Below, in pieces: positions 19,917-45,837 of a DNA stretch of 64,000 bases (its first letter is position 1; each line of letters starts with the position of its first letter). The notes under the pieces were generated by a model. The model was given only the letters and a program-made list of their open reading frames with translations. It was not told where the DNA came from and made no database searches. The translations under genes and the position numbers were made by a program. Location of the stretch: the NCBI GenBank assembly GCA_021792185.1, contig JAJYVD010000006.1, forward strand, positions 1-64,000, written 5' to 3'. Source of the stretch: Nitrospirota bacterium (GTDB lineage: Bacteria > Nitrospirota > Thermodesulfovibrionia > Thermodesulfovibrionales > Dissulfurispiraceae).

Positions 19917-19991
19917 ATAATAATACAAATCTCGCATAAGTTAAAGAAATAAAAGCGTTTCTTTACCTGTTATTCCGGCATAAAGTATAAT
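19917..19991. promoter_or_regulatory. Divergent back-to-back promoters for the hybrid kinase and selD
   Basis: Minus strand: TTTAAC (19940-19945), 17-bp spacer, TATTAT (19917-19922), 6 bp to the kinase ATG. Plus strand: TTTACC (19962-19967), 18-bp spacer, TATAAT (19986-19991), 5 bp to the selD ATG. With usual spacing both transcripts would begin at or within a couple of bases of the start codon. Neither start has a Shine-Dalgarno sequence. Confidence 0.6.
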
Positions 19992-19996
19992 ACCTC

Positions 19997-21007
19997 ATGG
20001 ATTACAGACTCACGGAAAAGGTAAGGGCTGCCGGTTGAGCGGCAAAGATGGGTCCGTCGGACCTTGAAGAGATAATCGGGGATATTCAATCGGGAGAGAA
20101 CCCTTCCGTTCTCGTCGGCCCGGGCGATGATGCCGGGGTCTATTTGCTCAACGGCACTGCGATAGTAGAGACGGTCGATGTTATAACGCCTGTGGTGAAC
20201 GACCCTTTCACCTTCGGCGCCATAAGCGCGAATAACTCATTGAGCGACGTGTATGCGATGGGAGGAATGCCTGTCTCGGCTCTGGCCATTGCGGGATTTT
20301 CGTCATGCGATTATGAGCCTGTTGTGTTAAAGGAAATACTGAGAGGAGCAGTGCATTCGTTGAACAGGGCGGGCGCAGTGCTCATGGGCGGGCACAGCTT
20401 CGAGGATTCTGAGCTCAAATTCGGCCTTTCCGTGATGGGCATCGCAAATAAAGATAACATACTTAAGGTTTCGGGGGCTGAGGAAGACGATATCATTATC
20501 ATTACAAAACCCATAGGCATAGGCATCCTCGCCACTTCACTTAAGGGCGGAAAATTAACGGATGATGATATGAAAACTGCCGTTGAATGGATGCTCACAT
20601 TGAATGATAAGGCATCGGAACTGGCGCTTAAGGCAGGCGCTACGGCCTGCACCGATGTTACCGGATTCGGCCTGCTGGGCCATGCGCATAACATGGTTAA
20701 GGGTTCGGGCGTCGATTTCGAGATCAAAAAAGACAGCGTTCCTGTGTTGGAACATGTGCATGAGATGATCAATGCGGGCATGGTTTCAGAGGGCGCATAC
20801 AACAATCTCAGATTCCTCGACGGAAAGGTTGAATTCTCTTCTCACATAACCGATGAAGACAGGCTTTTGCTTGCAGACCCTCAGACATCCGGAGGTCTTT
20901 TGATAACCGTGAAAGAAAAAGGCATTAAGGTCTTTGAGGACGCAGGGATATTTTTTTCGGTTATCGGCAGGGTCATAAAAGGCTCCGGAAAGATTGTCGT
21001 AAGGTGA
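19997..21007 (+). CDS. selD: Selenide, water dikinase, selenocysteine-containing
   Basis: SelD makes selenophosphate from selenide and ATP for selenoprotein and selenouridine synthesis. The frame from ATG 19997 reads RLTEKVRAAG, then TGA (20036-20038), then AAKMGPSDLEEI. This is the SelD active-site loop, with Sec (UGA) in place of Cys at residue 14 and the essential Lys three residues later. An in-frame TAA at 19988 leaves this ATG as the only upstream start. The rest of the family is intact: LVGPGDDAGVY, ETVDVITPVV, SDVYAMGG, GGHSFED, TDVTGFGLLGHAHNM and LADPQTSGGLL. Total length is 336 residues counting Sec. Annotating from ATG 20048 would lose the catalytic residue. It overlaps the next gene by 4 bp. 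Confidence 0.95.
20036..20064 (+). promoter_or_regulatory. UGA(Sec) codon with bacterial SECIS-like hairpin
   Basis: The Sec codon at 20036-20038 is followed at 20051-20063 by GGTCC-GTC-GGACC, a 5-bp stem (extendable by a G-U pair) with a GU-containing loop. The loop G lies about 18 nt after the UGA, within the range of bacterial SECIS elements read by SelB. No folding program was run. Confidence 0.7.
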
Positions 21008-44985: not shown

Positions 44986-45837
44986 TTAGAACAAACCTCT
45001 CACAATTTTCAGGTTTCTCGGATCGTCCTCTTCGCTTTTTTTAGGCGTTTCGAGTATTAGGGGAACTGTCTTAAATGCAGGATGATTTATGAATTTTTTT
45101 AATCCCCGTTTGCCGATGCATCCTTCTCCTATATGCTCGTGCCTGTCAACATGAGAACCATGTCCTTTCTTTGAGTCGTTGAGATGTATCAGTTTTACGC
45201 TTTCAATTCCGAGATAGCGCCTTATCTCATCCGCAAGTTCCTCCATGCCATTTTCGCTTGTTATGTCATAACCTGCCGCAAAGGCATGGCATGTATCGAT
45301 TACCACGCCTCCTATCAGAGGACTGCCTGTCTTATCAATAATCTCTGCAATGTCTTTTATGTGTGATGATATGTCTCCCCTCTCTCCGGCAGTATTTTCA
45401 AGGAGAAGTTTTGATCTCCATTCTTTCTTTCTTGCGACTCTTTTAAGTGCCTCTATTGCCCTTTTACGGCCGACTTCTTCTGAATCCTGAGATGCGCTGC
45501 CTGTATGGAGTATCACATAATCGGCATTGAGCAAGTCTGCGATATCCATCTCCTGAATTAGTAGTTCTATCGATCTTTCCAGTATGCCGTTATCCGAAGC
45601 AGCAAGGTTTATAAGATATGATGTGTGAATGAAGACCGGATTTATATCGTAGGACTTTCGCAATTCTTTAAATTGCAGAATTGAATCTGTTGGTATTTCC
45701 CTGACCAGCCACTGCCTTGGATTATGGGAAAATATCTGGACTGTATTGCATTCGAGTTCTTTTGCCCTCTCGATGGACAGATGCACACCGCCTGCTATGG
45801 ATGTATGGACACCGAGCCTTCGTTCCTTCATTGCCAC
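44986..45837 (-). CDS. nfo: Endonuclease IV (deoxyribonuclease IV)
   Basis: The protein of about 283 residues matches endonuclease IV: GVHTSIAGGVHLSIERA, VQIFSHNPRQW, PVFIHTSYLINLA, VILHTGSA, LLLENTAGE, GVVIDTCHAFAAG, and LIHLNDSKKGHGSHVDRHEHIGEG. These carry the His, Glu and Asp ligands of the three-zinc site. It cleaves AP sites in base-excision repair. A TATAAT-like -10 (45843-45848) sits 5 bp before a GTG and 11 bp before the ATG at 45831, so the start could be either. Confidence 0.95.
   Translation of the reverse strand: MAMKERRLGVHTSIAGGVHLSIERAKELECNTVQIFSHNPRQWLVREIPTDSILQFKELRKSYDINPVFIHTSYLINLAASDNGILERSIELLIQEMDIADLLNADYVILHTGSASQDSEEVGRKRAIEALKRVARKKEWRSKLLLENTAGERGDISSHIKDIAEIIDKTGSPLIGGVVIDTCHAFAAGYDITSENGMEELADEIRRYLGIESVKLIHLNDSKKGHGSHVDRHEHIGEGCIGKRGLKKFINHPAFKTVPLILETPKKSEEDDPRNLKIVRGLF

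Follow-up and report, generated by a model that had tools for sequence, protein, structure and literature searches.

The sole selD gene of a Nitrospirota bacterium has UGA at its catalytic codon and a predicted SECIS hairpin for decoding it as selenocysteine

A stretch of 64,000 nucleotides of Nitrospirota DNA (the window) contains a gene that almost certainly encodes SelD (selenide, water dikinase) with an in-frame UGA that would be decoded as selenocysteine (Sec) via a SECIS hairpin downstream of it (Table 1). Sec-containing SelD is already well known, and this gene is a further example. The assignment is carried by direct observations: the reading frame, the position of the UGA and its conservation in relatives, the constraint on the SECIS, the presence of selA, selB and tRNA-Sec, and the lack of a Cys copy.

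Table 1. Features of the selD locus in the window
Feature	Position	Strand	Basis or remark
Promoter-like TTTACC (19962-19967), 18-nt spacer, TATAAT (19986-19991)	19962-19991	+	Sequence; arrangement recurs in relatives
selD coding sequence with UGA = Sec (predicted)	19997-21007	+	336 residues, Sec14; TIGR00476, 2yye alignment, conserved N-terminus
In-frame UGA at the catalytic position, predicted to encode Sec	20036-20038	+	UGA in 59/59 SelD genes of the order; Cys codon in distant SelD
False start ATG of the conventional gene call	20048-20050	+	First start of the standard-code open reading frame; Met not conserved
Putative bacterial SECIS hairpin GGGUCC-GUC-GGACCU, loop 20056-20058	20050-20064	+	Fold; pairing above controls; frozen synonymous codons; compensatory change in L112
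UGA stop of selD	21005-21007	+	Overlaps the GTG start (21004) of a GH57/branching-enzyme-like gene; no strong hairpin downstream

The initial annotation, made from the DNA letters, had read the gene from ATG 19997 into an AAG-UGA-AAK loop of SelD, and both its frame and its coordinates were right. From this ATG, the frame runs through MDYRLTEKVRAAG to the TGA at codon 14 and continues with AAKMGPSDLEEI up to the stop, whereas the standard-code open reading frame extends from ATG 20048 to 21007. The readthrough product matched the SelD family entry TIGR00476 of NCBIfam, which is described with the motif UxxK (PMC13188914), at 333.8 bits (cut-off 125), with residues 4-308 of 336 aligned to positions 1-309 of the 311 in the profile. 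The closest solved structure was 2yye, a selenide, water dikinase (E 7.8e-88), and both matches run through the UGA. The structural alignment spans the catalytic loop (VRSSGCAAKVGP versus VRAAGUAAKMGP), and the [C/U]-x-x-K motif of the SelD N-terminal loop is present, with G-U-A-A-K aligned to G-C-A-A-K of 2yye. This places the UGA at the catalytic Cys/Sec position, as had been proposed. From the family, we infer that Sec is inserted at this codon and that the product is catalytically active.

We analyzed 60 genomes of the order Thermodesulfovibrionales (Nitrospirota), the genome under study included. SelD was found above the cut-off in 58 of them, giving 59 genes, each of which has exactly one UGA, always at the catalytic codon, a pattern that goes far beyond chance. 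Among the sequences above the cut-off in these 60 genomes, there was no Cys-SelD. Among more distant members of the family, some genes encode the catalytic residue by UGA and others by a Cys codon. The closest named matches came from metagenome-assembled genomes of Nitrospirae and Thermodesulfovibrionales. In a tree of 93 SelD proteins, the genes of the order, which all have UGA, did not form a single lineage, and 15 of the 17 Cys forms made up a separate, well-supported group. One genome (G003) has two UGA-containing selD genes belonging to different lineages (L043 and L125). Another (G050, 99% complete) encodes a full SelB but has no SelD above the cut-off and no tRNA-Sec match, perhaps because the Sec trait is being lost in this lineage or because the assembly has a gap.

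A hairpin at SECIS distance had also been noticed in the initial annotation, and this observation held up, with comparative constraint on the hairpin and a borderline energy. Its core is a perfect inverted repeat (GGTCC-GTC-GGACC), to which an outer G-U pair can be added to give a stem of 20050-20055 with 20059-20064. The published model of the bacterial SECIS has an upper stem of 4-16 bp, a distance of 16-37 nt between UGA and loop, and a minimum free energy of -7.5 kcal/mol or lower (PMC13188914, Fig. 2A). With 6 bp, a 3-nt GUC loop and 17 nt from the UGA, the selD hairpin agrees with the position and loop rules of this model; folded alone, its 15 nt gave -7.4 kcal/mol, a value that varies with the parameters and the stretch folded and falls slightly short of the published -7.5. 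The stability of the hairpin as a single sequence was not significant (z -1.0), nor is it the minimum free energy fold of the 48-nt fragment that begins at the UGA. Because such single-sequence z-scores are uninformative, we used comparative tests for the SECIS.

Among 58 distinct sequences, a mean of 4.52 of the 5 core pairs could form, compared to 3.00 in synonymous shuffles of the same peptides, and sliding the partner strand by 1-3 bases as a control reduced the pairing to 0.6-3.0 core pairs. Cys-SelD genes showed no clear excess of pairing (mean core pairs 2.59 versus 2.37 expected). The stem codons were nearly invariant in the 29 selD genes of the gene's own lineage (Gly GGT in 29/29, Pro CCG in 28/28 and Asp GAC in 28/29), and none of the 51 other conserved fourfold columns of selD, with a mean entropy of 1.69 bits, was as invariant. 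In the gene of genome G011 (L112), the Pro codon CCG has become Leu CTG and the opposite G has become A, a compensatory change from C-G to U-A that kept the pair while the amino acid was lost. Genes of a sister lineage (SP-DLS type, e.g. L030-L045) have loops without the expected leading G, which speaks against the assignment. The support for this putative SECIS rests on comparative evidence, not on thermodynamics.

The components needed to decode the UGA had been expected elsewhere in the genome and were indeed found there: one selA (622.6 bits), one full-length selB above the cut-off (394.6 bits) and a tRNA-Sec with the anticodon UCA. The tRNA-Sec lies on a small contig, but we rejected contamination, as the tRNA is identical in both genomes of the same genus. 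Of the 60 genomes analyzed from the order, 56 encode SelB. At the cut-off, the own genome has no second SelD, the other matches being far below it (61, 29 and 27 bits); an intact selD elsewhere, which would have spoken against the initial annotation, is thus missing. There was also no match to selU, the selenouridine synthase gene, in the own genome, and selenouridine was rejected as the purpose of SelD.

Because the sole selD has a Sec codon and there is no Cys copy, SelD is expected to depend on its own product. In principle, such a system needs some basal activity, from inherited protein or from misreading, and the UGA could be partly misread by a near-cognate Cys or Trp tRNA to yield a basal SelD that starts the Sec pathway. 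We consider this reading very unlikely: the conserved SECIS together with SelB and tRNA-Sec points to Sec-containing SelD as the main product, and some genes of this genome, selD itself among them, also end with UGA as an ordinary stop codon.

Another reading takes ATG 20048, the first start of the standard-code open reading frame, as the true start of a SelD-like protein that lacks the catalytic loop and regards the upstream match as a relic. The start codon at 19997 and the 13 codons ahead of the UGA are conserved in relatives, but ATG 20048 is not, as many of them have Ile, Leu, Val or Phe in place of its Met (in AAKM). Moreover, synonymous change is constrained in the SECIS codons, and a genome equipped with a full Sec system would have the truncated form as its sole selD. 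We therefore rejected this start, for which there is hardly any probability left, and the loss of the catalytic residue from a gene call beginning at 20048 is as the initial annotation had described it. That a Cys-SelD gene was misread in sequencing or inactivated by mutation is conceivable in a draft assembly of 89 contigs, but the relatives rule this out: all 59 genes of the order, taken from independent assemblies that include the single-contig genomes G007, G035, G044 and G051, have the identical UGA.

The Sec-containing SelD may be translated from an mRNA without a leader. The TATAAT of the promoter-like sequence ends 5 nt ahead of the ATG, and because it lies so near the start codon, we predict that the selD mRNA is leaderless. 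A perfect TATAAT is located 5-11 nt before the selD start in 14 genes, this one included, several of them with TTTACC 17-18 nt further upstream. Elsewhere in the window, an open reading frame on the reverse strand (44986-45837) has 5 nt between a perfect upstream TATAAT and its GTG start codon and is possibly a second leaderless gene.

By the mechanism that we propose, the SECIS would bring SelB, loaded with GTP and Sec-tRNA-Sec, to the ribosome, and the UGA would thereby be read as Sec without termination of translation. Sec14, in the mobile N-terminal loop, would then handle selenium while selenophosphate is made from ATP, and SelA would use the selenophosphate to produce Sec-tRNA-Sec for SelD itself and for other selenoproteins (two FdhA, the alpha subunit of formate dehydrogenase, and one hydrogenase). 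The final UGA, at 21005, is assigned as the stop because it overlaps the GTG start of the GH57 gene and has no comparable hairpin, and it would terminate translation. SelD supporting its own synthesis has been discussed for other bacteria (Zhang et al., PMC1794560).

HI0200m of Haemophilus influenzae is listed as a selenide water dikinase with UGA (PMC1914089). The gene described here resembles this bacterial Sec-SelD in its family, the Sec position in U-x-x-K, a SECIS directly downstream and the full Sec machinery; it differs in coming from a different order, in the lack of any Cys-SelD from its genome and from all the relatives tested, and in its predicted leaderless mRNA. Aquifex SelD (2yye, 2zod, 2zau) is the nearest solved structure by sequence and aligns across the catalytic loop, but the solved chains have Cys where the Nitrospirota gene has UGA. 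Cys-type SelD as in E. coli (3u0o) shares the family and the catalytic position, whereas it has a Cys codon there, and the hairpin is not conserved in Cys genes.

The initial annotation had further expected other UGA-containing genes, and three were identified in the own genome, two for FdhA and one for a [NiFe] hydrogenase. Both fdhA genes (L130, C75:69552-71579, and L136, C5:713-1153) have UGA at the active-site Sec position, in the contexts ARL-U-HAPTVA and ARI-U-HSPTVA, respectively. Each has a hairpin further downstream, and that of L130 is strong, with an 8-bp stem and a GUC loop as in selD. Seven other candidates in the window were tested, none of which had a Pfam domain spanning the internal UGA, and matches to FlpD had no in-frame UGA that would indicate Sec of the FlpD type.

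The third gene (L143, C71:10789-12339) encodes the large subunit of a [NiFe] hydrogenase and has UGA at both cysteine positions of the N-terminal L1 motif (FTQRI-U-GV-U-TTVHA), with DPCMAC at the C-terminus. As judged from the translations, its operon also encodes a small subunit, a cytochrome b and a maturation protease and looks complete. Known [NiFeSe] hydrogenases have Sec in the C-terminal motif (DPUxxC). L143 lacks this C-terminal DPUxxC, and its placement is reversed, with UGA in the N-terminal and Cys in the C-terminal motif; the closest solved Cys-type [NiFe] hydrogenases (e.g. 3myr, 4c3o) have RICGVCT at L1. Among 45 hydrogenase loci examined in the order (including L148-L190), UxxU was found in 27, CxxU in 7 and CxxC in 11, so that 34 of the 45 have UxxU or CxxU. 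In the UGA forms, synonymous sites are more conserved in codons 2, 3, 6 and 9 behind the second UGA than in any of 121 comparable columns. These codons sit before and in a SECIS-like hairpin (ACC-A-GCUC-CGUGA-GAGC-GGU), with 23 nt between its loop and the second UGA and 32 nt between the loop and the first UGA; with these distances, one SECIS could serve both. Hydrogenase alpha subunits appear in a 2026 table of selenoprotein families only as UxxC (PMC13188914). In the open-access literature searched, we found nothing relevant on a UxxU or double-Sec hydrogenase, so an earlier report may still exist. On this basis, the Sec system fed by SelD may well also make an unreported kind of [NiFe] hydrogenase, with two Sec residues in L1 (R-I-U-G-V-U-T) at the nickel-iron site and Cys in DPCMAC. 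By analogy, one residue of the Sec pair would be a terminal ligand and the other a bridging one.

Overall, with a standard gene call, the one selD gene of this genome is cut short and loses its catalytic residue; the FdhA and hydrogenase genes are equally at risk. The conserved double-Sec motif predicted for the hydrogenases, missing from the current list of selenoprotein families, is a more novel lead than selD itself. As no Cys-SelD occurs in the genomes of the order tested, the selenium pathway of these bacteria appears to rely on its own product with no visible backup. How Sec-containing SelD is made when selenophosphate is scarce, that is, how the pathway starts up, becomes a testable question in these lineages.
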